The position numbers and the translations under genes are program-made. Of a stretch of DNA of 42,371 nucleotides, positions 2,811 through 36,425 are shown one piece after another. The notes beneath the pieces are model-generated. The model was not told where the DNA came from, searched no databases, and was given only the letters and a program-made list of their open reading frames with translations. Every line of letters begins with the position of its first letter. The stretch's first letter is position 1. The DNA is taken from positions 1 through 42,371 of IMG/VR virus record IMGVR_UViG_3300041955_000296, one strand, 5' to 3'. The stretch comes from a virus.

Positions 2811-3621
2811 AGGGGGTTCTCCAGAAGTTCTCGCCCTCGACGCTCACCGGCCCCACCATAGGGGTCGGGAGACTATCTAACATCAATTCCGTTAACGCCC
2901 AGACAAGGGCATCCATTCGGTCGGGTGACGCTTGCTTGGGGTCTCCGGTGTAGGTCAGCATTTGCTCCTCAAGTTCCGGGAACACCCCTACGTGGTATAC
3001 CATAGGCGGAGTGCGCTCATAGAGACTTGATACAGGCTCGGCGCGAGTAATCTTCCCGTCTTTTGCAAATACCAGCTTGAGCGGGATGTTCGCCATTATT
3101 GCCCGTAGGTTGCTCTCTACTAGGTCGCCGCCGTTGTTCTTTTCGGCTACTACTCGGCCAGCCTTGAAATCGCAGTACGCTTCGTGAACTCGTCTTGCCC
3201 AAACGAGCGGGGAGCCCATGAGGCTGTAGTCCCCCAGGACGTAGGCGCAGCCATCAACCCCGAGCCCGGCGACCACGATGCCCGTCTCAGCGCCGGAGAG
3301 CTTCCGAGCCTTGCCGCCGCTCTCAAGCTGCCGCTCCTGCTCGGCGATTGCCACATTGGTTACGGCCGGGTCAACCCCGACCACGATGCGCTTCAATGGG
3401 GGTACTTTCGGACGCAATACGCGGCACCGCTCCAGAACCTCCAGGGTCCAGTTCGCGCCGGCAACGTCGTCCAGTATCTCGCCGTAAAGTTCCTGACGCC
3501 CGAGGCGCGTGCCCTCCATGCGCGCGAGCCGCGCAATGTACGGCTTTGCCAGGTGGGCCTTATTGTCGTAGGTTCCCCCGATCGTCATCACGACGCGGCG
3601 AGATGTCTTCTCTTCAGCCAT
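2800..3621 (-). CDS. Terminase large subunit, C-terminal nuclease polypeptide
   Basis: This 273-residue protein is the RNase H-fold nuclease half of a large terminase. Visible elements are the linker 'GGTYDNKAHLAKPYIARLAR...EGTRLGRQELYGEILDD' (about residues 15-50), the first catalytic Asp in VVGVDPAVTN, an acidic residue in VVAEKNNGGD, and the last in SPDRMDALVWALTEL. It cuts DNA at packaging start and end. ATG 3621 is chosen; a TTG at 3627 is also possible. The ATPase half is encoded just upstream in a different frame and ends at 3624, so the enzyme is made as two chains unless a frameshift joins them. Confidence 0.88.
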   Translation of the reverse strand: MAEEKTSRRVVMTIGGTYDNKAHLAKPYIARLARMEGTRLGRQELYGEILDDVAGANWTLEVLERCRVLRPKVPPLKRIVVGVDPAVTNVAIAEQERQLESGGKARKLSGAETGIVVAGLGVDGCAYVLGDYSLMGSPLVWARRVHEAYCDFKAGRVVAEKNNGGDLVESNLRAIMANIPLKLVFAKDGKITRAEPVSSLYERTPPMVYHVGVFPELEEQMLTYTGDPKQASPDRMDALVWALTELMLDSLPTPMVGPVSVEGENFWRTPYAG

Positions 3622-3623
3622 GA

Positions 3624-4388
3624 TCAAAATCCCACGAAACAGTCGGAATAGATCGTCCCGGAGGACATCAGCGAGCGCGCCTTCCCCGGGACTGCCGGGC
3701 CGGCGTCGATCTCTGCGCCGGGCCGCGGCGGAGGGGGTACAGCTTCGTCGCGCAGGTCCCGCATCAAGCGGGTTGGCTTCGGTGTGGTCGTGATGATTAT
3801 GCGCGGGTCCGGCGGGACACGGGTCGCCAGCTCCACTTGATCGAGCACCTCAGCGCCGTTCAAGACCATCTCCCCCAGCTCGTCTATCCAAGATCGCGCG
3901 AAGGCGTAGCCCCGAATTCGATCCGGCGTCTCGGCCGAAATCCCCCGGTATATGGTGCCGTTCGTCAGCAGCAGTTCCTTTTCGGAGGAGTGCCAATGCT
4001 GCACCCACTTGTCGGGCAGGATCGTAACCAGGCCGCTCTCGCCCTCGAAATCCACGTTGATCATCTTCTCGTAGGTCGGACCGACGACGAGGAGCTGGGT
4101 CTTCGGGTGAGTGAGCCCGTACCAGGCCATGTCTTCAGAAGCGCAGCGGGTCTTACCGTAGCCGCGGCCCGCCATGAGCACCCACATACCCCATTCGCCG
4201 GGGGGCGGGAGCTGGCCGTGCCAGTAGCCGGCCTCGTCAAGGTAAGTTCCGGGGAAGCAGCCGGCGGCCGTAGGCCAGCCCAGCTCTATCGCGCGCTCCT
4301 CCACAAGATCGAGCCAGCGCTTCCGCCAGATGAACAGGTCGCGTTCGTACTCGTCCCAGTTATCGAAATCGGCGGGATATGCAGCCAT
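3624..4388 (-). CDS. Terminase large subunit, N-terminal ATPase polypeptide
   Basis: This 254-residue protein is the packaging-motor ATPase half of TerL. The Walker A is LMAGRGYGKTRCASE (about residues 91-105), Walker B is FARSWIDELGEM (about 164-175) and the coupling motif is IIITTTPKPTRLMRDL (about 196-211). In ordinary terminases the nuclease domain follows within about 20 residues; here about 42 unfamiliar, Pro-rich residues follow before the stop, and the nuclease is a separate overlapping gene. GAAGG precedes the ATG by five bases. No small terminase is adjacent; the only candidate is the HTH protein at 12151-13008. Confidence 0.88.
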   Translation of the reverse strand: MAAYPADFDNWDEYERDLFIWRKRWLDLVEERAIELGWPTAAGCFPGTYLDEAGYWHGQLPPPGEWGMWVLMAGRGYGKTRCASEDMAWYGLTHPKTQLLVVGPTYEKMINVDFEGESGLVTILPDKWVQHWHSSEKELLLTNGTIYRGISAETPDRIRGYAFARSWIDELGEMVLNGAEVLDQVELATRVPPDPRIIITTTPKPTRLMRDLRDEAVPPPPRPGAEIDAGPAVPGKARSLMSSGTIYSDCFVGF

Positions 4389-4968: not shown

Positions 4969-4979
4969 GGGAGGTTCCC

Positions 4980-5453
4980 ACGTTCCTCGTTCGGAATTAC
5001 CCTATAACCTCGCCGATCGCGGCGTACACCCAGATTGGGAACGTCCTGAAGGCGGCGGCGATCGACACGACGCCCACAGGCATCCGACGTTCTGCGCCGA
5101 AGGCATACAAATTCTTCGCGCAGTTCAAGTACGGGAGCGGCGGCACGAACGTCAACGTCTTCCTCCAGACATCCTACGATGGCGGGGCTAGCTGGTGGGA
5201 CAGCATCTATATGTATCCGTTCTACAAAGTCTCGGCCAACGAGTTTTATAATCTGGCACGAGTGACCGGGAGCGGGACGAGCAGGCAACTCCACAACGAT
5301 CAGAGTTTTTCGCCGGGGCAGGTTCTCTCCTGCTCGATCGGCGCCATGTTCCGGATGCTGATTAAGACGGCGGGGACCTATTCCGGTACAACCCTTTCTG
5401 TAGATATGCTGACCGATCACTCGCTGTCCCTCGCTTCGGGGTTCCTGCCGTGA
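4980..5453 (+). CDS. Beta-rich phage protein, second tandem paralogue, apparent ACG start
   Basis: The frame is open to the TGA at 5453 and encodes about 157 residues related along their length to the preceding protein: FLVRNYPIT matches FLLSAFPIT, and 'YGSGGTNVNVFLQTSYDGG' plus ASWWDS matches the core. No ATG, GTG or TTG lies at the conserved N-terminus. The position equivalent to the paralogue's ATG is ACG (4980-4982), five bases after AAGGGAGG (4967-4974). The gene therefore either uses the rare ACG start or carries an ATG-to-ACG change or a sequencing error. An in-frame ATG at 4710 lies inside the preceding gene and is not credible. Confidence 0.75.
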   Translation, partial: TFLVRNYPITSPIAAYTQIGNVLKAAAIDTTPTGIRRSAPKAYKFFAQFKYGSGGTNVNVFLQTSYDGGASWWDSIYMYPFYKVSANEFYNLARVTGSGTSRQLHNDQSFSPGQVLSCSIGAMFRMLIKTAGTYSGTTLSVDMLTDHSLSLASGFLP

Positions 5454-5896
5454 GCGGGCTCTTCGCATACGCGGCGCAGTTCCAGAAGGACGAGGCTCGC
5501 GACAACCACGGCCGCTTCTCCAGCGGTGGAGGGGGTATGCTGGCGGAGACCGCTGCCAAGGTCAAGCGGATTGCCCAGCTCCAAGCAGAGCGCTTGGCGG
5601 CCGGGCGCGGCGAGCGCGTCTACGGCTCGCCAGCCAGCTCATTCGAGGCGATAGCAAGGGCTATGCTCAAGAAGGCAAAGCGCGGTGGAGGGGGCCTACT
5701 GGGACGCCGCGACCGGAAGCCGCTCGCGTATCCCGGCGTCGGCCAGCTCTCCGGGGAACGCGCGGGCCGCGCCCACGCTCTCAGCCTCAGCCGGTACGCC
5801 AGCCAGCGGCTCTCAGACCTGGCCGGAAGCTCTAGCCACCTCTCGGGCCACGCCGTAATCGCCGCGCCGCGATCCAACCGGCGGCAAGGCCAATAA
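5450..5896 (+). CDS. Small basic protein with DEARDNHGRF motif
   Basis: The 148-residue protein starts at GTG 5450, overlapping the preceding stop as GTGA. Its N-terminus has FQKDEARDNHGRFSSGGGG; the 'D-E-x-R-D-x-x-G-R-F' pattern recurs near the N-termini of several phage structural and head-associated proteins. The rest is basic, rich in Arg, Ala, Gly and Ser, with helical stretches and no catalytic motif. Coupling to the beta-rich pair suggests a shared, probably virion-related role. It converges on the minus-strand gene ending at 5933. Confidence 0.65.
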   Translation: MSGLFAYAAQFQKDEARDNHGRFSSGGGGMLAETAAKVKRIAQLQAERLAAGRGERVYGSPASSFEAIARAMLKKAKRGGGGLLGRRDRKPLAYPGVGQLSGERAGRAHALSLSRYASQRLSDLAGSSSHLSGHAVIAAPRSNRRQGQ

Positions 5897-5932
5897 AGAA
5901 GCCTAGCCGGATCGCCAGCGAGAATTCCAGTT

Positions 5933-6112
5933 TCACAGCTCGTCCTTCAAAAAGTCTATGTAGGCTCGGTCCTCGGCGGCAGGGTCTCGCCCTTCTTGCC
6001 GGCGGAATTTGTCGAAGCCTTCGCGCCATCGCTGATCACTGACTATCCGGCCGCCCAAGTCCCCATCGCTAGAGCCTGGCGGGACAAAGTCTTTAGGGGC
6101 TTTGCGGGTCAC
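5933..6112 (-). CDS. Small acidic/basic hypothetical protein
   Basis: This 59-residue gene begins MTRKAPKDFVPPGSSDGD and ends DRAYIDFLKDEL. Its GTG start (6112) overlaps the upstream stop as GTGA, the arrangement used throughout this phage. The protein is charged and probably helical (RWREGFDKFRRQEGRD). It has no known domain. It is the last gene of a minus-strand set of small genes and is convergent with 5450-5896. Confidence 0.65.
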   Translation of the reverse strand: MTRKAPKDFVPPGSSDGDLGGRIVSDQRWREGFDKFRRQEGRDPAAEDRAYIDFLKDEL

Positions 6113-6444
6113 GCACCGCTCACTTCGTTAGCGAGCCACACCCCAGTGCCTCGGCGGCAAAGAATGTCCAACGCACGGACGACACCACTGGCGACGACAG
6201 AAGCAGCGGCCAGAACACGCAGACATTTGAATAGCGAGTAACCGGCCGCCGAGCGAGCGGCCCTCCCGGCTTGCTTGGCAAGGATTGCCCGAGCTTTCGC
6301 CGTGCTCTCCAAAACCACCTCAATTGCCGCCATGATGCGGCGGTGGTTCTCTAGCAGATATTCGCCCGCGGTTTTCGTGACGCGCGCCACATGGTCGGCC
6401 ATGACGCGAAGGCTTTCGGGACTGTAGGACATAATAAGCTTCAT
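6109..6444 (-). CDS. Hypothetical protein with C-terminal hydrophobic segment
   Basis: The 111-residue protein starts at the ATG at 6444, six bases after AGAGGA; an ATG two codons upstream abuts the ribosome site and is less likely. The N-terminal half is amphipathic helix (MADHVARVTKTAGEYLLENH). A hydrophobic stretch near residues 80-95 (RVLAAASVVASGVVRAL) may insert in the membrane. A structured 85-base RNA leader precedes it. The function is unknown. Confidence 0.6.
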   Translation of the reverse strand: MKLIMSYSPESLRVMADHVARVTKTAGEYLLENHRRIMAAIEVVLESTAKARAILAKQAGRAARSAAGYSLFKCLRVLAAASVVASGVVRALDILCRRGTGVWLANEVSGA

Positions 6445-6496
6445 GTTCATTCCTCTTATTGGTGCGGGATTGCACCCCACTGCGGTATGCAGCACT

Positions 6497-6526
6497 CTCG
6501 CGGCGGATACTCCCGGCCGCCGCGAG
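6497..6526 (-). other. Strong RNA hairpin between two small genes
   Basis: A perfect 10-bp inverted repeat, CTCGCGGCGG / CCGCCGCGAG with a 10-base loop, lies just after the stop of the upstream gene; flanking GCAGC/GCTGC can extend the stem past a small bulge. A second hairpin, GGTGC/GCACC (6461-6476), sits immediately before the ribosome site of the next gene. No T-run follows, so this is not a typical intrinsic terminator. It may be an mRNA-stability or translation-control element. Confidence 0.5.
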
Positions 6527-6530
6527 GCTG

Positions 6531-6719
6531 CTACATGCGGGAGCGAGGAATAGCAGTCACCTCCCGCAAAGTAGAATGAACGGCGGCCGGCGCGCAAACA
6601 TCAAGGCATAGACCGTAAGCATGATCTAAAACGCCAAGCGGCGATTTCGCCAAGCTGATATCCGCAATGGCGCGCGCCAAGGTACGGCACGGTAGGTCAA
6701 GGTAAGGCGAGTTATTCAT
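6531..6719 (-). CDS. Small hypothetical protein
   Basis: The 62-residue protein begins MNNSPYLDLPCRTLARAI. The ATG at 6719 has an ideal GGAGGT seven bases upstream and overlaps the end of the upstream gene. It contains two Cys in GLCLDVCAP but no recognisable domain. A longer in-frame extension to 6794 lies inside the neighbouring gene and is not used. It ends in TAG. Confidence 0.6.
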   Translation of the reverse strand: MNNSPYLDLPCRTLARAIADISLAKSPLGVLDHAYGLCLDVCAPAAVHSTLREVTAIPRSRM

Positions 6720-6888
6720 GGTTTGCACCTCCGCAAGGCGGCCGTACCCAATGCCGCGCCGCTTCTTGTTCCCGCTCCGCCGCGGTCGCGCCACAAGTCG
6801 GGCAGCAATGCCGACAATGCCGAAAGCGGTTAAACAGACTATTGACGCCTAGCAAGGCTAAGGCGACTAGCACGATTGCTGTTAGCAT
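6712..6888 (-). CDS. Small membrane protein with Cys/His cluster
   Basis: The 58-residue protein has an N-terminal transmembrane segment (MLTAIVLVALALLGVNSLF) followed by HCRHCCPTCG, a small metal-binding-type Cys/His cluster, and a polar tail with one more Cys. ATG 6888 is chosen because AAGAGGA lies nine bases upstream; a GTG at 6897 abuts the ribosome site. It is the first gene of a unit read from the promoter at 6917-6946. The function is unknown. Confidence 0.6.
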   Translation of the reverse strand: MLTAIVLVALALLGVNSLFNRFRHCRHCCPTCGATAAEREQEAARHWVRPPCGGANHE

Positions 6889-6916
6889 GTTAGGCACTCC
6901 TCTTGTTCACAAGAGA

Positions 6917-6946
6917 AATGTAGTCACTCTCGTTGGTTAATTGCAA
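6917..6946 (-). promoter_or_regulatory. Sigma-70-like promoter for the 6888-5933 gene set
   Basis: On the minus strand TTGCAA (6946-6941) and TACATT (6922-6917) are separated by 18 bases. Transcription would start near 6910, inside a perfect inverted repeat TCTTGT-TC-ACAAGA (6901-6914) that also covers the ribosome-site region and could be an operator. The 160 bases upstream hold no gene and a direct repeat of CCAGGGG near 7022-7037. Confidence 0.5.
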
Positions 6947-7064
6947 CAAGAAAGAGCGTGAACAAAGAAAAATCTTCAGCGGTATCAGTAACGATACGCC
7001 AGTTGGATAGTAAGCTTAATCCCAGGGGTGCCAGGGGAGGGGTCTAAACCCTAGAAAAGCGATT

Positions 7065-7586
7065 TTACCCCCTCCTCCCCCTCCACGCCGTTAACGGCGC
7101 TGAGCGCGGCACGGTCAGGAGCCGCAGCGGTGGCTTCTCCTCGGCCCCCTTCTCGGCCGCCCAGTCGTCCATAAGCGAGCCGATCCACTCCTGCGCCACG
7201 CCAGCCGGGAAGGCATATCCACGCTCCGGGCGGCCCGGTCCACCTTCCCGCTTGCCGCGGGGCCGAGCCCGGGTGGCAGCATAGAGGGTCTTGCGGTCCA
7301 TCCCCCGCTCCACGAAGAATGGCTGCCCGCCCGGCTTCAGGTCTGCGCGGAGGAATGTCGCGCCGGTGAAGATGATAGTCGTCTCAGCGGCGCGCGGCGT
7401 CCCCGGATGCCGGGGCGCTAGCCGCTCCGCGTTCTGGAGCTTCGCCAGAAGAGCGGCACCGGCGATATCCTGCTGCGGCGTCGTGTCGGCATCCAGGAGG
7501 CCCATGCGCTTCAGCGCCGCCTCGGCGAACGCCTTCAGCTTCTCCTGGTTCGTCAAAGCGCGGTCAGCGGTGCTCTCGGTCGTCAT
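7065..7586 (-). CDS. Hypothetical protein
   Basis: The 173-residue protein starts at ATG 7586 after GGGAG and overlaps the upstream stop as ATGA. The N-terminus is helical (LTNQEKLKAFAEAALKRMG), the middle has a short beta segment (TTIIFTGATFLRADLKPGGQPFF), and the C-terminal half is Arg/Gly-rich. It is not recognised. A palindrome CGCCGTTAACGGCG (7086-7099) lies in its last codons. Confidence 0.65.
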   Translation of the reverse strand: MTTESTADRALTNQEKLKAFAEAALKRMGLLDADTTPQQDIAGAALLAKLQNAERLAPRHPGTPRAAETTIIFTGATFLRADLKPGGQPFFVERGMDRKTLYAATRARPRGKREGGPGRPERGYAFPAGVAQEWIGSLMDDWAAEKGAEEKPPLRLLTVPRSAPLTAWRGRRG

Positions 7587-7834
7587 TTCTCAACTCCCAT
7601 GAGCTGCAACGTAGCCTCATCCTCAGCCTGGAGCTGCCCGAGGATTTTCAGGGCCGTTCCCGGGTCCAGCGAGATAGAGCCGCCCTCGCTCTCATGGCCG
7701 ACAGCAACGAAGTCAAGCCCCACGGTTTTGACGTGCTTGTAGCGCCGGCCCTCCTCGATGATCTTGTATATCCGCTCGATCTCGGTCAGCCGACCGCTGA
7801 CGATCGCGGCGTCTTGTATCTGGGAACGCTTCAT
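7583..7834 (-). CDS. Small helical hypothetical protein
   Basis: The 83-residue protein begins MKRSQIQDAAIVSGRLTEIE and has a helical N-terminus followed by a short beta part and a helix (TALKILGQLQAEDEATLQLM). Its start overlaps the integrase stop as TGATG and its stop overlaps the next start as ATGA, so it is translated with the integrase. No domain is recognised. Small genes beside phage integrases are sometimes excisionases, but no winged-helix signature is visible here. Confidence 0.65.
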   Translation of the reverse strand: MKRSQIQDAAIVSGRLTEIERIYKIIEEGRRYKHVKTVGLDFVAVGHESEGGSISLDPGTALKILGQLQAEDEATLQLMGVEK

Positions 7835-8433
7835 CAGATAAACTCCATGACGGCTCTCTGGGCATCGCTGTCCTGCTCGATGTAGACAGCGGTGCTTTCG
7901 AGAGACTTGTGGCCCATCAGCATTTGCACGTCCCGGATGGTGCCGCCCGCGTCCTCGATGGCGCGCACGGCCCGAGTGGCGAACGTGCGGCGGCCAGAGT
8001 GCGACGAGCAGCCCTCCAGGCCCAGATCGCCGTAGAGGCGCTGAAAGAAGACCACCATGGCGTGCGAGGATAGAAAGGGGTGCGCGGCCCGCTCGCTTTT
8101 GATCACCGGGTCCTCGGGCCGCGCCACGACCTTCAGTTGAAGCGCTGCCAGAGCGTCCTTGGTCTGCTTGTGAAGTGGGAGAATGCGGCCCCCGACCTTG
8201 CCCTTGGTGATCCGGTTGCGGAGGTGGATCGCGTCGTCCAGCGTACCGTCCGGGCGCGTGACCATGCTCCAGGTCAGCTTAGCGATCTCGCATGCGCGGA
8301 GCCCTTGCTTGACGCTGAGCAGGAACGCCACGGTGTCCCGCTCGTGGTGCCGACCGCGTTCCTTGATGGCCCGCAGGACCTTGTTGACCTGCCTGGGCTC
8401 CAGAACCTTCGCTTGCTTACCGACGCCGCTCAT
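7834..8433 (-). CDS. Tyrosine recombinase / integrase, catalytic domain only
   Basis: The 199-residue protein has the tyrosine-recombinase core: Arg in GLRACEIAKL (about residue 46), a Lys in the RITKGKVGGR beta-hairpin, HSGRRTFAT (HxxR), LMGHKS, and the nucleophile Tyr in STAVYIEQ. It would cut and join DNA at an attachment site. It is much shorter than most phage integrases (over 300 residues) and lacks the N-terminal arm- and core-binding domains. ATG 8433 is preferred over 8439 because GAGAGGA is five bases upstream and it overlaps the preceding stop as ATGA. It could instead act as a resolvase. Confidence 0.85.
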   Translation of the reverse strand: MSGVGKQAKVLEPRQVNKVLRAIKERGRHHERDTVAFLLSVKQGLRACEIAKLTWSMVTRPDGTLDDAIHLRNRITKGKVGGRILPLHKQTKDALAALQLKVVARPEDPVIKSERAAHPFLSSHAMVVFFQRLYGDLGLEGCSSHSGRRTFATRAVRAIEDAGGTIRDVQMLMGHKSLESTAVYIEQDSDAQRAVMEFI

Positions 8434-8606
8434 ATCCATCCTCTCACTGCTGCGCGGCCCCTGATCATCGCAATGAGCCGCTTGATGTAGGCGGCATGTT
8501 GAGGGTTTTTCGTCAGTTCGTCAAGCCCTTTTTTCCAGTCGCCCGGGCCGCGGGCATCTAGGAACTTGTCGGCCTCGTGGTACAGCTCCATGGGGCTCAT
8601 GCTCAT
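8430..8606 (-). CDS. Small hypothetical protein
   Basis: The 58-residue protein begins MSMSPMELYHEADKFLDAR and is mostly helical with a basic C-terminus (RLIAMIRGRAAVRGWI). It overlaps its upstream neighbour and the integrase as ATGA at both ends. It has no known domain; its position directly before the integrase makes a role in recombination or its control conceivable but unproven. Confidence 0.6.
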   Translation of the reverse strand: MSMSPMELYHEADKFLDARGPGDWKKGLDELTKNPQHAAYIKRLIAMIRGRAAVRGWI

Positions 8607-10901: not shown

Positions 10902-11693
10902 TTAGTGGAGATCGAGGAACCAGCATTCCTTCGGAAGGACAGAGACCGGCTCCAGCTTGAGTGCGGCCCGAGCCTGCTTCATCGTCATAAGCTCCCCGCC
11001 AGGGTGAGCGGCATTCCAGCGCTGCTTGTAGCGGTACGCCACGCGCCGGTGCACGATCGTCCCCGGCTCCGCAATCTCGCAACCCGGCAGAGCCTTCGTG
11101 TGCGACACTGGGCTCCCAAGACCGAAGCACCGGAAGTTCGCTGCGCGGTATATGCCCCCGCCAGCTAAGCTCGCCCATGCTTCCGCCTCGGCCCGGCTAA
11201 CCGGAACACCAGTTTGACCCACGGCCGGGTCCCGGTAGCTCACGATGAAGCGTATCCCATGATCCCGCTTCAACATCTTGTGGCAGATCGACAGGAACTT
11301 AGTCAGCGGGATTAGTGCCTCACCCCTGGCGCCCTTACGGCAGAGCCGCTTCAGCTCAAGACAATTCAACGGGTACAGCACGTGACCCTCGGCATCCCGG
11401 GCATCGAGGGTTAAAACCATCTCTTTCGTCCGCTTCGACCAGGCACGACCGCCATCCATGTTCCCGCCGAGCCCGTAGTCCGCAACAGCGTAAAGCTCGT
11501 CGCCGAGGTAGGCCCCGTAGAAGTAGTTAAGGCCGGTGGGGCACTTCCGGGTATAGTGGAATTCCTTGATGAAGGGCTTCGCGATCTTGTGGGGGATGGA
11601 CTTCACGACGAAGGACTGGAGCGGCCGGGTCGGCTTCGAGCCGCCTTCTCCAGGGGGAACCTGGTATCCTTCACTTAGACGACAGCCGCTCAT
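10902..11693 (-). CDS. Mom-like DNA modification protein (GNAT-fold family)
   Basis: The 263-residue protein has the pattern of the phage Mu Mom family: a FIKEFHYTRKCPTGL segment (HY motif, about residues 42-56), YGAYLGDELYAVADYG, a conserved LNCLELKRLC helix, then FIVSYRDPAVGQ and GGIYRAANFRCFG (about 145-190). Mom modifies adenine to N6-(methylcarbamoyl)adenine in Mu DNA and protects it from restriction. The product of this homologue is not shown by sequence. ATG 11693 gives the longest frame; it is almost exactly at the predicted transcription start, so the message may be leaderless. Confidence 0.78.
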   Translation of the reverse strand: MSGCRLSEGYQVPPGEGGSKPTRPLQSFVVKSIPHKIAKPFIKEFHYTRKCPTGLNYFYGAYLGDELYAVADYGLGGNMDGGRAWSKRTKEMVLTLDARDAEGHVLYPLNCLELKRLCRKGARGEALIPLTKFLSICHKMLKRDHGIRFIVSYRDPAVGQTGVPVSRAEAEAWASLAGGGIYRAANFRCFGLGSPVSHTKALPGCEIAEPGTIVHRRVAYRYKQRWNAAHPGGELMTMKQARAALKLEPVSVLPKECWFLDLH

Positions 11694-15401: not shown

Positions 15402-15908
15402 CTATCCCCATAAGCTCCAGAATTGCGGGACAGTGCTCTTCGGCAGATAAAGCGGGTGCTTTGGTTGCCCGGACTTCGTGAGCCCCAGGTGCATCACGAG
15501 CGAGCCGGCCGCCTCAGCGCCCCAAGAGCGCGTTGAGCGCAGGATATTCCGGACTTCGGTGTCACGCTCCATATAGGTGCCGTGCGCGCCCCAAGCGGCG
15601 ATCGTGGTGCTGCACACCTCGATCCCCATTCTCAGGTAAGCGTCGTTCTCGGGACCGATCGGCAGGATATCCGTCTTCAGCTCCGCGGGGGAGGTAGCGC
15701 GGAGTGCAAAGAGGTTCGTCACCACAAGCCCGCTGAAGTTGAGCTGCTTCGCGAAGCTGGTACAGCGCCGGATGGTGGGGTCATCATTCATTGCATCGGC
15801 CGTGCTAGGATTAAGCATTATGAAGTTCACCAGTTGGCCGCCCTCCGCCCACTTACGCACGAGCCAGTAGCGGTACGGGCCGACGATGGTTGCGGTGTGG
15901 ATATTCAC
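15402..15908 (-). CDS. DUF1643 protein
   Basis: The 168-residue protein carries the DUF1643 signature: FIMLNPSTADA (about residues 29-39), DDPTIRRC, a TNLFALRATSPAEL segment and GPENDAYL. The biochemical role of this family is unknown; it is common in phages and in DNA-related gene clusters. GTG 15908 overlaps the RlpA-like stop as GTGA and has GAGGAGG seven bases upstream. It ends in TAG. Confidence 0.85.
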   Translation of the reverse strand: MNIHTATIVGPYRYWLVRKWAEGGQLVNFIMLNPSTADAMNDDPTIRRCTSFAKQLNFSGLVVTNLFALRATSPAELKTDILPIGPENDAYLRMGIEVCSTTIAAWGAHGTYMERDTEVRNILRSTRSWGAEAAGSLVMHLGLTKSGQPKHPLYLPKSTVPQFWSLWG

Positions 15909-17992: not shown

Positions 17993-18291
17993 GCACTTTC
18001 GCCGCCGGGGCCTATCCAATCCCTGAGCTTGCTGATCGCTGGCGGTTGCCGGCCATGGAAGGCGGATAGCAGCGCGGGCGGATTGGGGACTGGCCCCATC
18101 ACCACCAGGCCGGGGTTGTCCCAGTTCACCAGGCCGCGGACGGTGTGGAAGCCGCGCTCCAGCAGCTTCGTGGGGACGCACTGGGCGCAGGACCACTCGC
18201 TCGCGGCCCGGTCCTTGAACCGGACGTAGTAGAAGCGGGCAAGGCGGTACTGGTCGCCCAGGACCTTCGTGCCCGCCGCGCTCTCTGTCAC
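17989..18291 (-). CDS. Hypothetical protein
   Basis: The 100-residue protein starts at GTG 18291, overlapping the preceding stop as GTGA. It begins MTESAAGTKVLGDQYRLARF and contains SEWSCAQCVPTKLLERG (one Cys pair) and GLVNWDNPGLVVMGPVP. No family is recognised. It is translated with the deoxyribosyltransferase-like gene. Confidence 0.6.
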   Translation of the reverse strand: MTESAAGTKVLGDQYRLARFYYVRFKDRAASEWSCAQCVPTKLLERGFHTVRGLVNWDNPGLVVMGPVPNPPALLSAFHGRQPPAISKLRDWIGPGGESA

Positions 18292-18869
18292 GACACCGCC
18301 CCGAGCAGGACATAGCGGGCATAGCCCAGGCAGACCTTGAAGCCGGTCAGGTCGTCGATCGAAGCATCGTTCCGGTGAACGTCGTATCCGCCCGCACGCT
18401 TGACGCCGCGGTCAACCATAATGTTGTCCATACCGCCGAAGCGTTCGACGAGAGCACCACGTACATCAACCCACTCCCCGTCTTCTCTTATATCAATGCC
18501 GTCCTGGAAGTTAACGCGATGTTCGTAGTCGCTTGAGGTGTTTGTATATCCGAACACTTTCTTTCCGAGCCCCATCGCGATCCCCACCTCGACAGCGGTC
18601 CCAACGTCGGCGCTGACACCGCGGAATGGTGTGAGGTTGGCTATGATGGCGTCGCACTCGAAGACCATCTCATAGTCTGCGAGGAATATCAGGTCGGCGA
18701 AGCGCTCTCGCTCAGCGCGCAGCTCGGGCGGCTTGCCGAGGTTATTATCCATGGGGTTGAGCGGCAAGAACCCCGCCTCGGTCGTGAGCTGGTTCTTGAT
18801 CCTGGCGATCTTGACCGCGTTGGGTAGGAACACTTCGGGGCCTGCCAGGTAAATCTTCGGCTTGCGCAT
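18288..18869 (-). CDS. Nucleoside 2-deoxyribosyltransferase-like protein
   Basis: The 193-residue protein starts with KIYLAGPEVFLPNA (residues 4-17), the entry strand and loop of the family, followed by FLPLNPMDNN, an acidic helix, CDAIIANLTPFRGVSADVG (about 95-113), TAVEVGIAMGLGK with the expected Glu, and VFGYTN. The family swaps or hydrolyses bases of deoxynucleosides. In a phage it may remodel the nucleotide pool. GAGGAGA lies before ATG 18869, which overlaps the preceding stop. Confidence 0.82.
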   Translation of the reverse strand: MRKPKIYLAGPEVFLPNAVKIARIKNQLTTEAGFLPLNPMDNNLGKPPELRAERERFADLIFLADYEMVFECDAIIANLTPFRGVSADVGTAVEVGIAMGLGKKVFGYTNTSSDYEHRVNFQDGIDIREDGEWVDVRGALVERFGGMDNIMVDRGVKRAGGYDVHRNDASIDDLTGFKVCLGYARYVLLGAVS

Positions 18870-19210
18870 CACTTGTCTCCTCGAAAGGCCCAGCGGTGCA
18901 GGTGCTTCAGCAGCGCTTCCAGGCCCTTCCCACGTTTCGAGGCGCATGGTATCTCAAGAATGTATAGTGCGTCAAGGTCCTCGGTGTCGGCTGGCGGCGT
19001 ATCCGTGGCGTAAAGCTCCGTGGCGGAGCACACCACCCACCAGCTCTGGTTAAGGTCGTTGGCCTTTTGCGCCGCGAAGATTACTATTTTGAGGGCATGT
19101 TCAAACTCCTCAGCCGTGAAGATAGGGTCTACGATCCCGCTCCGGGGGTTGTCGTCCTGGAGCATCTTGACGGCTCGGAAGTCTAGTCGTTTGATGCGGG
19201 CTCCGATCAT
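18869..19210 (-). CDS. Hypothetical protein
   Basis: The 113-residue protein begins MIGARIKRLDFRAVKMLQDD and contains QSWWVVCSATELYATDTPP and a basic C-terminus (LLKHLHRWAFRGDK). The ATG overlaps the primase-helicase stop as ATGA. No known domain is recognised. It lies between replication and nucleotide-metabolism genes. Confidence 0.6.
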   Translation of the reverse strand: MIGARIKRLDFRAVKMLQDDNPRSGIVDPIFTAEEFEHALKIVIFAAQKANDLNQSWWVVCSATELYATDTPPADTEDLDALYILEIPCASKRGKGLEALLKHLHRWAFRGDK

Positions 19211-20556
19211 TTGCCGGTTCCTTCCCAGTCGGTCTTCGTGCCGCTGATACGGTCGAAAGCCTCGCGGCAATCCGACAGCTTAGGCAGGAAATAGCACCAG
19301 GGCCGCGAGCCCTTTCCAGAGCGGTGCCGACAGAATTCGGTGCCGGTAAGAAAGCGCTGGAGCATCATTCCGATAACGATGTCGGATTTGGCATCCTTGC
19401 GCTGGTTCGGGCGGTCGTTCTCGTATGCTAGCTGGATGGTAGAGGTGGGGATGTCTATCGCGCTCTCGGTCCAGATATTCCCGGCCTCGCCGGTGAATTC
19501 GCTATGGATATCGCCGGTGAGCAGGCAATGCCGCCACCACTGTTGGTCGTCGGTCATATTGAGCAGCTTTTGCTCGCCGAGCGCCTTCGTCTGCGGGATG
19601 GCGCGGATATCGAAGTGCGATAGGTCGGTGTGCTGAAGCTCCCACAGCAGCGCGGCCGTGCCGTCACCGTCCATTTGCTCGCAGAGCGCCTCGAAGTAGA
19701 GCCCGTTGCCCTGCTGGCACGCGCTCACCTCCAGGACGAAGTAGCGTTCGCGCTCGCCCATATCCGCCGGCACAACGTCGCGATGATTGCTGAGCATGAC
19801 GACGTGCAGGCGGTTCGGCGCGTTGACGGTCGGGAAAAACTTGTTCTCGATCGGGATCACGTCGTCCGCGATCAGGCTCTTCAGCGCGTCGGCATGCTCG
19901 TGGTTCTTGGCGAATATCGCTTCCTCGCATTCCAGGAACGTCGTGTCGCGCAAGTGGCCGTTGAAGCGCCCGACGAGATGGTGCGCGTTAGAGATCATCA
20001 TGCCGTGGCGGCCCACCATTTTGCGGATATAGCGCGCCCAGACGCCTTTGCCCGTGCGGTTCTCCTCGCTGAAGAGCACGACCGCCGGATGCCCGCGCAT
20101 GGTAGGGCGCTGTACCATGTGCGCGAGCCAGCCCCAGAGATAGTCGTAGCATTCTTGGCTGCCGCTGCACAGCACTTCTAGCATGTGCTGCTTGAACAGC
20201 GAGCAGTCGCCTTCCTTTGCTTCGACGCCCCAGCCTCGCCAGAGATTGAACTTTCCAGGCGGGGCTTCGAGACTGCCCGGGTCAAAAGTGACACCGTTCA
20301 AATACTCTTGCCGACGAGGGTGTTTGCTCCACACTTCCGCGTCATCATCCGCAGCGCCGGCTTGATGCTTATTTTCGTAGTGCTTCTTGAAGGCGTGCTC
20401 GGTGTAGGCTATGTACTCCTCGTTTTCTGTTTCGTCGTTCGCAACTTTGCGCCACATGGCGGCTTTTCCGCCTTCCGGCGCGTAGAACCACTCGGCGTTC
20501 ATCTCGCGCAGCCACTTGGGCTGGGACAGGTCCTCACCGCGCACGCCATCGACCAC
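19207..20556 (-). CDS. Primase-helicase, C-terminal helicase part (downstream of in-frame amber)
   Basis: This 449-residue frame is the SF3-like (DUF5906/D5-type) helicase half of a primase-helicase. A Walker A-like SEENRTGKGVWARYI lies near residue 160, a Walker B-like TTFLECEEAIFA near 207 and a VVMLSNHRD segment near 255. The same frame is open upstream to the TAG at 20707-20709 and continues in frame into the PrimPol gene, so the two were one gene of 787 codons. GTG 20556 is only a possible restart and has no clear ribosome site; 20557-20706 is protein-like sequence without a start. Confidence 0.8.
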   Translation of the reverse strand: MVDGVRGEDLSQPKWLREMNAEWFYAPEGGKAAMWRKVANDETENEEYIAYTEHAFKKHYENKHQAGAADDDAEVWSKHPRRQEYLNGVTFDPGSLEAPPGKFNLWRGWGVEAKEGDCSLFKQHMLEVLCSGSQECYDYLWGWLAHMVQRPTMRGHPAVVLFSEENRTGKGVWARYIRKMVGRHGMMISNAHHLVGRFNGHLRDTTFLECEEAIFAKNHEHADALKSLIADDVIPIENKFFPTVNAPNRLHVVMLSNHRDVVPADMGERERYFVLEVSACQQGNGLYFEALCEQMDGDGTAALLWELQHTDLSHFDIRAIPQTKALGEQKLLNMTDDQQWWRHCLLTGDIHSEFTGEAGNIWTESAIDIPTSTIQLAYENDRPNQRKDAKSDIVIGMMLQRFLTGTEFCRHRSGKGSRPWCYFLPKLSDCREAFDRISGTKTDWEGTGK

Positions 20557-20706
20557 CTCGGGCTCGGGGAGCGCCGGCAGATCGACGCCGCCGTACCCGT
20601 GTGTTCTGGCGTTGGCGTAGAGCCAGTCCGCGCCGACGACGGTTTCAGTGAGGCTCTTCCAGATAACGTCAAATGCTTCGTCGGTGTTCGGCGGGTATCG
20701 CTTGTA

Positions 20707-21570
20707 CTAAGTCCGAGCCTCGTCTTCGCCGTCGCCGCCCATCCCGGCTTTGAACGCCGCGATGATCTGGACGCAAGAGCCGTGGTCCTGCTCCCGGTCC
20801 TCATCATTCGGGAAGAAGGTCAGCGCCCGCTTCAGCTCTTCTTGGTCGTCAGCCAAATGGGCGTCATACGGGATAGGTTTGCGGCTGCCGCCACCGGTCA
20901 GCAAAGACTTGGATACGACGGTGTAGCCCATCATCTCGACGATCGAGGCGGTGGTGGCGATGAAGCGGTCCCACTGCTCGACCGTCACTACGGGGATTTT
21001 GTCGCGCCCGAATGAGATGGGGTCCTGGCCGCCCACCCAGAAGTAATTGCCGCCTTTGGGGTGGATGCCCTCGCACACGAATTGCCCGCCATGTCCGAGA
21101 AACTCGACTGCCAGCTCAGTTCCCGGGTCCTTTGGGTCGAAGAAGGCGACGCGGCCCTTGTGCGGCGGCACCTCGCCCGGCGCTAGCTGGTAGAGCATGA
21201 GCTGCCGGTCGCTGCCTTCGCGGCCCCTGACGATCGTGCGCCCCAACTCCGTGCCGGCCGCCTTGCGCACCTCGGCCACCGCGGGGTTATTGCAATCCAG
21301 ATCGACCGCGAGGAGCAGACCAGTCCTGAGCCCCTTGTTGGGCTCCGGCTTGGAGCGCCCCCACTTGCGGAGATGGCTGCGGTCGAAGACGCGCGTCGTC
21401 CAGGAGTGCATCCCCACCCACGTTTCAAACTCGGTGCTGTATTCGCCGGGGATTTTCCCGCACTGGGACGGATTGACGCCGCTCTTGTCAGAGAGCTTCG
21501 CCCCAGGCGGGATGATCGGGATCACCTCGGCGAGATATCCCGCGTCGGCGTATTGCTCGAATGTGGGCAC
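20707..21570 (-). CDS. PrimPol-type primase, N-terminal part ending at in-frame amber
   Basis: The 287-residue product has an archaeo-eukaryotic primase-polymerase domain: LLLAVDLDCNNP with the metal-binding DxD near residue 89, GREGSDRQLMLYQL near 115, and EFLGHGGQFVCEGIHPKGGN near 155-175. It would synthesise primers for the phage polymerase. The frame stops at TAG (20707-20709) after DGEDEART, yet the next codons in the same frame (YKRYPPNTDEAFDVIW) read straight into the helicase. GTG 21570 follows GGGAG. Readthrough, mutation or sequencing error could explain the amber. Confidence 0.85.
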   Translation of the reverse strand: MPTFEQYADAGYLAEVIPIIPPGAKLSDKSGVNPSQCGKIPGEYSTEFETWVGMHSWTTRVFDRSHLRKWGRSKPEPNKGLRTGLLLAVDLDCNNPAVAEVRKAAGTELGRTIVRGREGSDRQLMLYQLAPGEVPPHKGRVAFFDPKDPGTELAVEFLGHGGQFVCEGIHPKGGNYFWVGGQDPISFGRDKIPVVTVEQWDRFIATTASIVEMMGYTVVSKSLLTGGGSRKPIPYDAHLADDQEELKRALTFFPNDEDREQDHGSCVQIIAAFKAGMGGDGEDEART

Positions 21571-21586
21571 GGGTAGGCTCCCGTTG

Positions 21587-22165
21587 TTAGGCAGTCAGTT
21601 CGTGGAACCGCTTAAGATAGAGCTGCTCGGCGATCTCGGGCATATAGCACATGACAGGGAAGTCGTAAGGCTCTTTCATGTGGCTTCGCTCGGCGCTATC
21701 CGGCATCAAATCGCGGTGTTCGGTCGCGAGTAAGCGCTGATCAACGAGCTTAATCGCCGGGTCCATCGGATAGCGCACGCCGAACTGCTTGAAGATCGTT
21801 TCGTCGATCTCGTCTTCCAGGTCCTTCATAGCGGTGAAGCCCTTCTCGGCGAGGAACCACTTCAGCGGGCTCGGCATATCGTGCACGTAAGCCTCGCTCG
21901 CGTCATGCAGCAACGCTCCGAGCTTGTGGGGCCACTCCGCCATGATCGAGGCGAGGTAGCAGTGCTCGGCTACTGAATAGAAGCGTTTGACGTGGCCCGT
22001 CCACCGGCAATTCATGCTCAGCGCGTGGGCGATATCCCGGATGTCGTAGGTGTTGGTCTTGATCCGGTCCCAAAAGAATTGGTGGCCTACGAAGGTGCGG
22101 ATATAGAAGCCGGTGCCGTCGTGGGCGGTTTCTCTCGCGTGAGCGCTTGGCGCATCCTTACTCAT
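21587..22165 (-). CDS. HD-domain phosphohydrolase (YfbR/DatZ-like)
   Basis: The 192-residue protein has 'DIAHALSMNCRWTGHVKRFY' then SVAEHCYLAS (first His, about residue 69), KLGALLHDASEAYVHD (HD pair, about 83-98) and later a conserved Asp region (KLVDQRLLATEH). HD enzymes of this size remove phosphates from (deoxy)nucleotides. In 2-aminoadenine phages an HD enzyme (DatZ) destroys dATP and is found with a family A polymerase. Here it overlaps the polymerase gene as ATGA. Substrate cannot be read from sequence. Confidence 0.8.
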   Translation of the reverse strand: MSKDAPSAHARETAHDGTGFYIRTFVGHQFFWDRIKTNTYDIRDIAHALSMNCRWTGHVKRFYSVAEHCYLASIMAEWPHKLGALLHDASEAYVHDMPSPLKWFLAEKGFTAMKDLEDEIDETIFKQFGVRYPMDPAIKLVDQRLLATEHRDLMPDSAERSHMKEPYDFPVMCYMPEIAEQLYLKRFHELTA

Positions 22166-24318
22166 TTCCTGTACCTCTCGCCCCGCCATCCTTCTGCCAC
22201 TACTGGGCAGCCGTCGCCCCAGCCGGGGAGTTGGGCCAACGTCTTGCAATAGGCGTCCAGATCACCGAAGCCTTTCTCGACTTCTGATACTGCCTCATCA
22301 TGGGAGTGGAGCACAAGGGGGTAGCCATCAGCTTCTACCTTGAGCATGCCGTGCACGAGCAGATCGCGACTGATCTTCTGCACCGCGTTCTCGTCCCAGT
22401 GGCCGCCGTAGCCGTATTTCCGGGTCCACCGCCGACTAGAGCCCTCGGGACCCCAGTAGGAGACGGCTTCCCGCTCCATGACCTTCCTGACCGGCTCACC
22501 TGTCGCCTCGTCGATTACGGTGATCATCTTCCGGGCCTTCCTGATCTCCGGCCGGCAGTATTTCAGGGTATCGCCGGACGGGACGCGCATGTAGAGGAAG
22601 AGCCCATGGACAGCGAAGCCGATCCGATGGTTGCAGGCCCAATAGGCGGTGCCTGGGTCCGACACGGCGTTGAGCGCGGCGTCATCCAGGTCAGCCCACC
22701 CCTGTTCGATGTTCGGGTGCTGCTTGCGCCAGCCGATCTTGATCTGGTTGGCTTTCTTCGGCGGGACGTGGACATGGTAGTTCTTGCCCATGTTGGTGAA
22801 GGCGTTGATGCCGCCCTGATAGCCCATGGACAGCTCGGCGACCTTGCCATGCTGGCGCTCGGGGCTCTTCTTGTTGTAGGTGCCCGCCGGCACCTCATTG
22901 ATGCCCTCGGCGGCGAGCAGATATAGGTCGCGACCTTTACGAATGGGCTCTCCTGATAGGTCATAGCCTATAATTGTGTCGTAGTCCCGGAACGCCTGCA
23001 CCTTCCACAGCTCGTCGTGGAGCCAGGCGTTCACGCGGCCTTCGATGTTGCTGAAGTCGGCGGTGATGAATTCCTTGCCGGGATCGGCGCAGATCATCCC
23101 GCGCATGCACTCGGCGACGACCTGCATGGCCGGCGCGCCGATCAGCATCTCTAACCAGTCGGCGTCAGCCCCTTCCATGAGTAGCTTGAGAGCGTAACGG
23201 ATATCGACATCTCCGGTCGGTCGCATGAGGTTCTGAGGCTGAAAACCGGTGCCGCTCCAGCGCGTGGTGTGCGCGCCGTAGAGCATAAAGTTGCCCCGAG
23301 CCCGCCCGTCCAGATTTCGTCGAAGGAGCATACTATCAAACTTAGAGGTGCTGGTCCGAGCAGCTTCGTCGCGTATTTCAAGCACTCGTTTGACATGGGC
23401 CGGCAGTCCTTCCTGAGCTAGGAGCTGCTCCAGCGGCTCCGCGGCGATGCTGGTGATCTCTTTTCCGTCCGCGGTCCTGACGCCCTCGCGGTTCAGCCAG
23501 TCCGCAATAGCGCCGACCATGCTCGGCTTGCAGTAGCGGCCAGTCAGCACTTCCATCTCGTTCGATAGCTCGGCATAGCAGCTCTTGGCGACACTGCGGC
23601 AATGGATGACGGTCGGCACGTCGATACGGAGCCCGCGGTCATTGATCTTCATGTCCAGGAAGAAGACTGCCAGCTCGCGCTCGGGCAAGTCGGGCACCTT
23701 CTTGTCCAGGGCGCGCTCAGTGCGAACGTCCTGTTTGCAGTATTCCAGCTCGCGCGCCATCTTCTGGGGTGTATACACCCAGAGGATTATGCTGCCGTCC
23801 GGCATCCGTGTAGCGTCCCAGCTCCGCGTCTCAGCGCCGAGCTTCTCGTCCCAGTAGAGGTAGTCCGGCATATCCGGCGTGAGAATTTTCCGGGGGCGGC
23901 ACATTTGCTTCATCAGCCGATGGCCTTCCTCGTCCTTCTGTTCGGTGACGCCCATGACGTAAGCCGCCTCGCCCAGGGACCGCGGGAGCGCCATGTAGGC
24001 CGCTTTCGCCGCTGTGCAGCGCCATTGCTCCAGGGCCGGCTCGGGCCAGCCGTATCGCGGCGTCAGCACATAGCGCCACAGGATACGCTCGAAATCCTTG
24101 TTGTGGGCGACGAGAAGGCCGCCGGAGACTACGTGCATGGCGACGCGCTCCGGCACCGGGTCGCTCCGGAGCCAAGCGCTCACCTCCGGCTCGTCCCCGA
24201 AAGACTGGCAGGAGCATACGATATCCGTGGAAGGGTCCTCGGCGTATCGGTATGCGCCTGCCTTGGTCAGATCGATCGCAGAACGGGTCTCGAAGTCAAT
24301 ATGCAGAACACCGTCCAC
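22162..24318 (-). CDS. DNA polymerase, family A, with 3'-5' exonuclease
   Basis: The 718-residue protein is the replicative polymerase. The N-terminal DEDD exonuclease shows LHIDFETRS (about residues 5-13) and a later CKQDVRTE. The polymerase has motif A ADFSNIEGRVNAWL (about 420), motif B RQHGKVAELSMGYQGG (about 490) and motif C LHSHDEAVSEV (about 670). GTG 24318 follows the GapR-like stop by two bases. An aromatic Tyr is present in motif B (GYQGG). The gene is adjacent to the HD phosphohydrolase and PrimPol. Confidence 0.92.
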   Translation of the reverse strand: MDGVLHIDFETRSAIDLTKAGAYRYAEDPSTDIVCSCQSFGDEPEVSAWLRSDPVPERVAMHVVSGGLLVAHNKDFERILWRYVLTPRYGWPEPALEQWRCTAAKAAYMALPRSLGEAAYVMGVTEQKDEEGHRLMKQMCRPRKILTPDMPDYLYWDEKLGAETRSWDATRMPDGSIILWVYTPQKMARELEYCKQDVRTERALDKKVPDLPERELAVFFLDMKINDRGLRIDVPTVIHCRSVAKSCYAELSNEMEVLTGRYCKPSMVGAIADWLNREGVRTADGKEITSIAAEPLEQLLAQEGLPAHVKRVLEIRDEAARTSTSKFDSMLLRRNLDGRARGNFMLYGAHTTRWSGTGFQPQNLMRPTGDVDIRYALKLLMEGADADWLEMLIGAPAMQVVAECMRGMICADPGKEFITADFSNIEGRVNAWLHDELWKVQAFRDYDTIIGYDLSGEPIRKGRDLYLLAAEGINEVPAGTYNKKSPERQHGKVAELSMGYQGGINAFTNMGKNYHVHVPPKKANQIKIGWRKQHPNIEQGWADLDDAALNAVSDPGTAYWACNHRIGFAVHGLFLYMRVPSGDTLKYCRPEIRKARKMITVIDEATGEPVRKVMEREAVSYWGPEGSSRRWTRKYGYGGHWDENAVQKISRDLLVHGMLKVEADGYPLVLHSHDEAVSEVEKGFGDLDAYCKTLAQLPGWGDGCPVVAEGWRGERYRK

Positions 24319-33978: not shown

Positions 33979-34125
33979 TCACCTCAAAAACATCCACATA
34001 AAGCCCAGATTGCCGACTGTGTATCCGGTCCAGACAAGCGCCATCGGATAGTCGCCCTTTGACACTTGCGAGACCGCGACGCCTATATAGCACAAGGTCG
34101 TGATCAGCACAAGGGGGAAGCTCAT
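33979..34125 (-). CDS. Small membrane protein
   Basis: The 48-residue protein begins MSFPLVLITTLCYIGVAVSQ and has two short membrane segments separated by SKGDYP. The ATG overlaps the Ntn-hydrolase stop as ATGA. It is paired with the next membrane protein. The function is unknown. Confidence 0.6.
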   Translation of the reverse strand: MSFPLVLITTLCYIGVAVSQVSKGDYPMALVWTGYTVGNLGFMWMFLR

Positions 34126-34625
34126 GTCGCCGACGCCTCAGTCGGCTTGAGCGGGACGACGCGCACGGGAAGCCCGGTGTAGATGTCGTATTTGCAGGCG
34201 ATCTCGACCGCCTTGGCCGCCGTCGCGCCGGCTGCCATCGCGCCGATCGCGTAGCGGAAGCCGTTTCCCATCGCGGCGTACTTCTCGTGGCACTCCAGGA
34301 TTTGGGCGCTGTAGGCCATATCGCTGTCGCCCACCATGTCATCGAAATAACACTCGATATAGAAGACGCGCCCGTTCTTGAGCACCAGGAGCCCGCGGAT
34401 AGTCTGCTTCAGCGCCTTAAGCTGGTCTCGCGTCGGCAAGTTCTTCTCGCCGCGGACGGTCGCCATGAGCTTCAGGAAGTCGCGCTCGTCAGCGTCGCCG
34501 CTGAGCCCGAGGAGATGGCCGTGCGGGAGCCGCACGATCTTGTTGCAGCGGGTCACGAAGTCGTCGCCGCCCGTGACCTTGCTGTCGCAGGCCATGAAGC
34601 CGTTCGTGTAAGCGATCGTTGTCAT
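34122..34625 (-). CDS. HslV/proteasome-like Ntn-hydrolase
   Basis: The 167-residue protein begins MTTIAYTNGFMACDSKVTGG. Thr2 would be the N-terminal nucleophile after Met removal, with a DSKVT motif (Asp14-Lys16) in the place of the proteasome catalytic Asp/Lys. Further family features are LLGLSGDADERDFL, GNGFRYAIGAMAAGATA (about 120-136) and a DIYTGLPVRVV C-terminus. Family members cleave peptides; the role in phages is unclear. GAGGA precedes the ATG. Confidence 0.8.
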   Translation of the reverse strand: MTTIAYTNGFMACDSKVTGGDDFVTRCNKIVRLPHGHLLGLSGDADERDFLKLMATVRGEKNLPTRDQLKALKQTIRGLLVLKNGRVFYIECYFDDMVGDSDMAYSAQILECHEKYAAMGNGFRYAIGAMAAGATAAKAVEIACKYDIYTGLPVRVVPLKPTEASAT

Positions 34626-34645: not shown

Positions 34646-34675
34646 TGACTTTCGTTTACCCCCGGAGGAAAGTCA
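34646..34675 (-). other. Inverted repeat between the fusion gene and the Ntn-hydrolase
   Basis: TGACTTTC and GAAAGTCA form perfect eight-base arms around 14 bases. The repeat spans the end of the ParB-phosphoesterase gene and lies upstream of the Ntn-hydrolase ribosome site. There is no T-run, so it may be an operator or RNA hairpin. Confidence 0.35.
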
Positions 34676-36425
34676 AGGCTTTCTGGGCACTCGTCTCCGT
34701 CTCCGCCTTGATGTCTGAGAAGACGCACGAGGCGGGGCCGGGACCAGTCGTGACCTTTTCAAGGAAGACCGGCCACTGGCAAGTGATCCCGTGCTTGGGA
34801 TGGACGAACCAGAGCGCTTGGGACGGCCGACTGTAGGGAGCCCTCAGGAATAGGCGAGCGAATTCGTCGTAGCCCTTGAGGGCTCCGTTCACGATGACGG
34901 CAGCGGCTTCCCCACGAGGGATATAGGTGTGCCAATGCCCCATGATGATCGTGTCGAATTCCCGGCCGATCTGGGCTTCGGAGCGCGCCATCTTCAGGGC
35001 ACCGCGGGCAACTGGCCCGAGCATCCCGATTATACCGTCACCGCCGCGCACGCCGAGGTTGTCGCCGTGCGTGAGGAGAAACCGGTGGCCCTGGACGTTA
35101 AACGCCACGTCACTCTCGGGGGACACGTCGAAGCGGAAACGCTCGTCGTGGACGAAGCGTTGCTCCAGCTTCGTATACAAACCCCACTCGAAGTTTTCGA
35201 TTGCCTTGCCCTTCGCCCGGGGCTTCTTGTGCATGCGGCCATGATTGCCGACGACGCACGGGACGTAGAGCCGGCCGAACTTGTCGGCCATGATCTCCAG
35301 AGCCCCGGCGATGTAGTTCTCCAACTCGGCGAGCGTCTCCTGGATCGTGCCGTCGTTCGTCTGCTCCAGCTCTTCGTGAATGATGCCGGATACCATGTCG
35401 CCACCGAGGCAGATCACCATGCCCGGATACTCCGGGTTGACCATGTAGTCGTAGGCGAGCGATATCGTGCTGCCGATAAGGGTCTTGAGACGGGTGCGGG
35501 CGACGCGCCGGTTGAATTCGTTGCAGCCGCCTACTTCTTCAGCCTTAACCACTTCGCCCCAATGCCAATCCGACCAAACCGTCATTGGGACGCCAGGATG
35601 ATCGGGCGGGCCGTGCTCGACGAGCCAGGAAGGCACCGGGTCGATCGGACGTTTGGCGATGCCGAATATGGTCTCCCGGATGCTCTCCGCGGTGTCGTTC
35701 TGGACTTTGATGGCCTTCAGATCAGCTTCGACTTCCTTCAACTTGGCGCGAAGGACGCGCTCTTTCTCGGTCCCATCGGCGGTAAAGTACCGCTCCAGAA
35801 GATCGTTGATACCGTCAACGTCGGTCAAGTCCAGCTCCTCACCTCGGATCGTGGCCCATGCTTTTGCTTCTGTTAGATGTTTCTTTGCGAAGTGTTCTGC
35901 TGCGTGGTCCCGCGCCATACGTTTTTTAATTGTCCCTCCGTCAGTCCAGGAGCGCACGAGCTGCTCTTTAGGGTGGCTTGATCCTTTACCGCTTCTTTTT
36001 TGAGCAAATGGGATATTAGGCCACAACGCCTTTGCGATATTAGTGTTTCCTATGCTACGTGACTTCATCTTCAGCGCCGCAGCCTTGAAATCTTGCGGAT
36101 ACTCAAGCTGGTGCCCGTGGTCGCGGTTCATTGCGATCCCGTACTTGATCGCTTCCAGCTCCGTTCCGTCGAAGGCTTCGCAAGGAACCTCGACGATGCC
36201 GACTTTGTATGCCGCATCTCGCCGGTGGAAACCGTCGATGATGTACCACTTGCCGTCCTTCTTGAAGACGATGATTGGATTGGTTTTCCGAAAGCCTTCG
36301 TCACGCATGCTTCGCGCCAGCTTCTCGGTCATCTCGGGGTCCATCGCAGCGCGTAGTTGGAAAGCGCCATAATCGACGACGAGATCGGCGAGCTTTAGCA
36401 TAATGATTTTCGGGGTGGCGGCCAT
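34656..36425 (-). CDS. ParB-domain / metallophosphoesterase fusion
   Basis: The 589-residue protein combines an N-terminal ParB/Srx domain (residues about 8-110; LARSMRDEGFRKTNPIIVF, WYIIDGFHRRDAAYKVG) with a C-terminal calcineurin-like phosphoesterase: MTVWSDWHWGE (about 283), ICLGGDMVSG (about 337), VVGNHGRMHKK (about 393), FLLTHGDN (about 452) and IIMGHWHT (about 495). All metal-ligand motifs are present. A charged helix (ERVLRAKLKEVEADLKAIK) links them. ATG 36425 follows a near-consensus promoter. A nuclease or phosphatase acting at ParB-bound DNA is an inference. Confidence 0.85.
   Translation of the reverse strand: MAATPKIIMLKLADLVVDYGAFQLRAAMDPEMTEKLARSMRDEGFRKTNPIIVFKKDGKWYIIDGFHRRDAAYKVGIVEVPCEAFDGTELEAIKYGIAMNRDHGHQLEYPQDFKAAALKMKSRSIGNTNIAKALWPNIPFAQKRSGKGSSHPKEQLVRSWTDGGTIKKRMARDHAAEHFAKKHLTEAKAWATIRGEELDLTDVDGINDLLERYFTADGTEKERVLRAKLKEVEADLKAIKVQNDTAESIRETIFGIAKRPIDPVPSWLVEHGPPDHPGVPMTVWSDWHWGEVVKAEEVGGCNEFNRRVARTRLKTLIGSTISLAYDYMVNPEYPGMVICLGGDMVSGIIHEELEQTNDGTIQETLAELENYIAGALEIMADKFGRLYVPCVVGNHGRMHKKPRAKGKAIENFEWGLYTKLEQRFVHDERFRFDVSPESDVAFNVQGHRFLLTHGDNLGVRGGDGIIGMLGPVARGALKMARSEAQIGREFDTIIMGHWHTYIPRGEAAAVIVNGALKGYDEFARLFLRAPYSRPSQALWFVHPKHGITCQWPVFLEKVTTGPGPASCVFSDIKAETETSAQKALTFLRG

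Follow-up and report, generated by a model that had tools for sequence, protein, structure and literature searches.

The primase-helicase gene of the window (the whole stretch of viral DNA analysed here, 42,371 nt) contains an in-frame amber codon, which raises the question of whether this stop is a device for producing a short and a long form of the enzyme or is a break in a gene of a standard type. A reading made earlier from the sequence alone had described one internal TAG in a frame that runs on into the helicase, 787 codons in all; this was confirmed by translation, which also established the strand, missing from that reading, as minus (nt 21570 to 19207). The parts of the gene, and its neighbours, are:

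19207 – 21570, minus strand: PrimPol / PriCT-2 / SF3-like helicase gene, 787 codons if the TAG is read through; homologues are single ORFs
20710 – 21570, minus strand: 287-aa N-terminal part, with PrimPol (PF09250) and the initial helices of a PriCT-2-like bundle
20604 – 20844, minus strand: predicted PriCT-2-like helix bundle (model helices, residues ~243 – 322), cut by the TAG
20707 – 20709, minus strand: in-frame TAG, codon 288, at a column where homologues have Trp (TGG) or another aromatic residue
19210 – 20706, minus strand: frame after the TAG, 499 codons, the rest of PriCT-2 and a DUF5906 SF3-like helicase
21587 – 22249, minus strand: HD / YfbR-like deoxynucleotide phosphatase (phrog_318), neighbour
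22162 – 24318, minus strand: family A DNA polymerase (phrog_17), neighbour

The gene begins with a GTG codon at nt 21570, with GGGAG a few bases upstream, and has 287 codons before the TAG, which is the one stop inside the 787-codon frame; the terminal stop is TGA (nt 19209 – 19207). Directly 3' of the TAG, in the same frame, is the sequence YKRYPPNTDEAFDVIW, as previously stated. At the stop density found over all frames (0.0253 per codon), 499 open codons would arise by chance with a probability of ~3e-6, so the open stretch is not a chance occurrence; it has a coding score of +112.7 and matches DUF5906 and phrog_1156. Pfam matches are to PF09250 (Prim-Pol) in the N-terminal half (E 1.9e-9, above the cut-off) and to PF19263 (DUF5906) in the second half (E 1.4e-16), while the two halves match successive parts of phrog_1156 (phage DNA primase family, 855 positions). 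The C-terminal part also gives a fold match to the solved C-terminal region of NrS-1 polymerase (E 5.8e-14).

That the PrimPol and helicase halves form one gene, as had been supposed, is upheld by the relatives, which carry single fused genes. Using the helicase half and the entire read-through protein as queries, tblastn matched hundreds of phage records; in phages, IMG/VR and prophages alike, the fusion is encoded by one gene of ~720 – 950 aa. In five phages with gene annotation it is a single CDS (~770 – 800 aa), VBv52 has one open frame at this gene, and Chi-like phages, phiVC8 and ZP6 also carry single genes. Profile scans added IMG/VR contigs (232 relatives were counted in the second scan) and bacterial contigs, many of them probably prophages. 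Among ORFs with strong matches to the helicase half, 130 of 137 are at least 600 aa long; short ones either are cut by contig ends or encode a helicase that lacks this PrimPol part, as in the helicase-only relatives L035, L037, L043, L053 and L058. One relative (L153, nt 5242 – 7821) has an in-frame TAA, located after a complete helicase and followed by a partial second copy of the helicase region, which is a different situation from the TAG of the window. Identity of the best segments to relatives is in all cases 42% or less. No near relative was found in single-protein scans with both gene halves and the polymerase, with a degenerate DNA pattern that spans the codon and allows TAG or TGG, or by megablast against phages and plasmids, and a second DNA pattern recovered a distant relative only.

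Alignment of homologues at the amber codon, proposed earlier as a check, places mostly Trp, and otherwise mainly aromatic residues, at this position. Trp is present in all five relatives of the first alignment; a codon-level set has 51 TGG (Trp), 8 TTC (Phe), 1 TAT (Tyr) and 1 ATA, and the largest set (n = 130) has 89 W, 6 F and 3 Y, these being proteins whose N-terminal part is of this kind, together with 7 gaps and 25 other residues. A stop occurs in none of the 130 aligned homologues. Most of the non-aromatic rows are proteins in which another motif precedes the helicase (WxVxDRVKVIxxQG...SRSAW), and because this motif differs, the column is not homologous in those rows. In one alignment the residue at the column appeared variable, but this was traced to a misplaced gap, and the column was settled by counting the spacing to the next conserved Trp (residue 304), which is kept in the window protein. 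By hand count, positions 288 and 304 are separated by 16 residues, and the spacing is identical in Smarc5 (Chi-like), phiVC8 and ZP6.

For three relatives, a match to PF08707 (PriCT-2) encloses the aligned Trp: Trp 248 (211 – 283), Trp 274 (244 – 309) and Trp 267 (229 – 301). Pfam did not detect PF08707 in the window protein. A structure model, made with the TAG read as Trp and a 29-row alignment (mean pLDDT 76, pTM 0.57, with lower confidence in the PrimPol half), predicts bundle helices at residues 243 – 250, 263 – 277, 282 – 290, 297 – 306 and 314 – 322. Residue 288 is inside the predicted helix 282 – 290, in a block with a pLDDT of 91, and therefore the stop cuts a domain and does not fall at a domain boundary. 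As modelled, it is a predicted PriCT-2 bundle that is interrupted by the TAG, rather than two domains that are separated by it. PriCT and helix-bundle domains have been reported to be needed for priming (PMC5862659; PMC7102993). The NrS-1 primase-polymerase likewise consists of PrimPol, a helix bundle and a helicase-like C-terminal region, and its N300 fragment (PrimPol + HBD) primes and polymerises (PMC7102993); N300, however, keeps the whole helix bundle, whereas the short form in the window would lose the end of it.

The closest comparison is with the phrog_1156 proteins of YuA/PaMx74, RDJL, phiVC8 and Chi-like phages, which have the same domain order, total length and conserved helicase residues, and whose Trp-16-Trp spacing in the PriCT-2 region is matched by the window protein at an overall identity of ~25 – 30%. 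The window protein differs from them in the stop at the first Trp, in its P-loop and in a PF08707 similarity that is below detection. The P-loop region (~nt 20040 – 20080, minus strand; residues ~499 – 510) reads SEENRTGKGV where relatives have GxKGTGKGT; the GK is kept while the flanks deviate, and three near-invariant positions differ.

The reading that best accounts for these observations, with a probability of about 0.86, is that of a standard PrimPol/PriCT-2/SF3-helicase fusion in which a conserved Trp codon has become a premature amber through a one-base change. In the codon-level set every one of the 51 Trp codons is TGG, which a single transition converts to TAG; this fits the TGG-type mutation or sequence error that had been listed earlier as an alternative. 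Tyr codons are likewise a single step from TAG, but Tyr is rare at this column. The change would have been TGG to TAG at the conserved Trp codon of the putative PriCT-2 helix bundle, and the product, as written, would be a 287-aa PrimPol without the end of the bundle and without the whole of the helicase. The full-length enzyme would then be missing, probably with loss of function. The gene is thus an interrupted copy of the phrog_1156 family and not an intact member, its frame not being continuous.

Against this reading, decoding of the TAG has to be weighed at several levels. Reassignment of TAG to an amino acid throughout the genome has in its favour the one in-frame TAG found here, and stop-reassigned phages (Crassvirales and others) similarly have an in-frame TAG in a gene. 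Phage stop-codon reassignments are reported to be whole-genome, with an amber suppressor tRNA in about half of cases (PMC11210395), while the window has one such TAG, no tRNA gene, and uses TAG as a stop. TAG is the proper end of at least six other predicted genes, those at nt 12151, 15402, 26620, 27083 and 39831, which had been listed previously, and at 28257; a further entry in that list, 6531, is an 87-aa ORF that was not called by the gene model. The protein ending at 15402 stops where its family profile stops (phrog_3230, 16 – 164 of 167), and the extensions past the stops of all these TAG-ended genes are short, with coding scores of 0 or less. The window shows neither the many in-frame TAGs nor the avoidance of TAG as a stop that mark amber-recoded (table 15 type) genomes. 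Global reassignment is scarcely conceivable, being refuted by stop usage in the window, and the earlier view that the code as a whole is unchanged holds. Part-time decoding of this one TAG, by a suppressor or near-cognate tRNA, to give a short PrimPol and a long PrimPol-helicase would suit the open, coding-like 499 codons, and recoded phages do exist (PMC11210395), although these reportedly have stops in many genes and here one gene is affected. A suppressor tRNA may lie in the host or in the rest of the genome; a check elsewhere in the genome had been called for, and no tRNA gene was found in the 42,371-nt window, which is probably an incomplete record. The window also has no Rfam match above the gathering score, and the RNA after the TAG folds no better than shuffled sequences (z = +0.97). 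The stop context, UAG-U, favours termination, a U at +4 having been linked to low read-through (PMC5289835); in E. coli reporters, TAG was read through at mean rates of 0.02 – 0.8% in the conditions shown (PMC11126739). With no stop in the homologues at this column, and a short form that would end in a broken domain, such readthrough is improbable. A version in which the amber is fixed in this lineage and decoded at a set rate is rated as very remote: the stop is not conserved (0/130, in distant relatives), and there is neither a leaky context nor a stimulatory structure.

A natural split, with PrimPol ending at the TAG and a separate helicase restarted downstream, would correspond to the arrangement in phages that encode primase and helicase in different genes, and would find a parallel in the helicase-only relatives, and also in the terminase gene of the same window, which is in two parts:

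3624 – 4388, minus strand: terminase large subunit, ATPase part, first ORF, with ~40 extra residues at its end
2800 – 3627, minus strand: terminase large subunit, nuclease part, second ORF, in a different frame

Judging from the sequence, the terminase looks like a natural split, as it is divided at the ATPase/nuclease boundary and the second ORF opens with an ATG of its own immediately past the first stop; in phage CRP-6 the terminase is one CDS of ~448 aa. In the primase-helicase, by contrast, the cut is inside a domain, and the first in-frame start past the TAG, a GTG, lies 50 codons further and has no ribosome-binding site, nor has any nearby in-frame start. Known primase-helicases that come in two forms, T7 gp4A/4B for example, rely on an internal start. 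A natural split is accordingly very unlikely, and the two-form regulatory device put forward in the sequence-only reading finds no support in a conserved Trp inside the PriCT-2 bundle, or in a window that offers neither suppressor tRNA nor stimulatory structure nor restart site.

To return to the premature amber, the change could be present in the DNA (a nonsense mutant or a decaying temperate phage, ~55%) or in the assembled consensus only (~45%), these figures being a judgement and not a measurement. An intact helicase frame with a strong coding score implies that the change is very recent, or is an error, or that the product is still made somehow. A lineage of short duration that keeps the TAG is also conceivable, no near relative having come up in the searches. 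Of the near-invariant columns, 5 of 32 deviate in the helicase (three of them in the P-loop region) and 0 of 5 in the N-terminal half, but gene decay is not demonstrated by these counts because some intact relatives deviate to a similar extent. The IMG/VR record is classed as linear, without end repeats, and appears to be a fragment; the window also encodes a tyrosine integrase and might therefore come from a defective temperate phage. Among the other large genes, those that match a family look intact.

The gene lies in a run of minus-strand genes (nt 18288 – 24318) comprising the family A polymerase, the HD/YfbR-like phosphatase, the primase-helicase and a nucleoside 2-deoxyribosyltransferase, a layout that resembles those of Z-genome phages. 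A Z-genome (2-aminoadenine) module, suggested by the combination of polymerase A, HD phosphatase and PrimPol as in phiVC8/ZP6, was rejected: a search of the window for PurZ was negative, and its HD protein and polymerase show weak or no likeness to their phiVC8/ZP6 counterparts. A region of ~2 kb (nt 4969 – 7064), near the integrase (nt 7834 – 8439), is without a gene called by the gene model. Other features of the window include:

10902 – 11693, minus strand: Mom-like DNA modification protein
34122 – 34625, minus strand: phage-encoded HslV-family peptidase (phrog_1040)
34656 – 36425, minus strand: ORF with ParB-like N-terminal and exonuclease-like C-terminal parts (phrog_1033 and phrog_284)

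If the stop were fixed and read through, it would provide a controlled dosage of primase relative to primase-helicase, but nothing here points in that direction. As it stands, the gene encodes a divergent phage primase-helicase that is cut short by a premature stop, and this in itself matters little; the practical warning is that gene callers give two genes where relatives have one.
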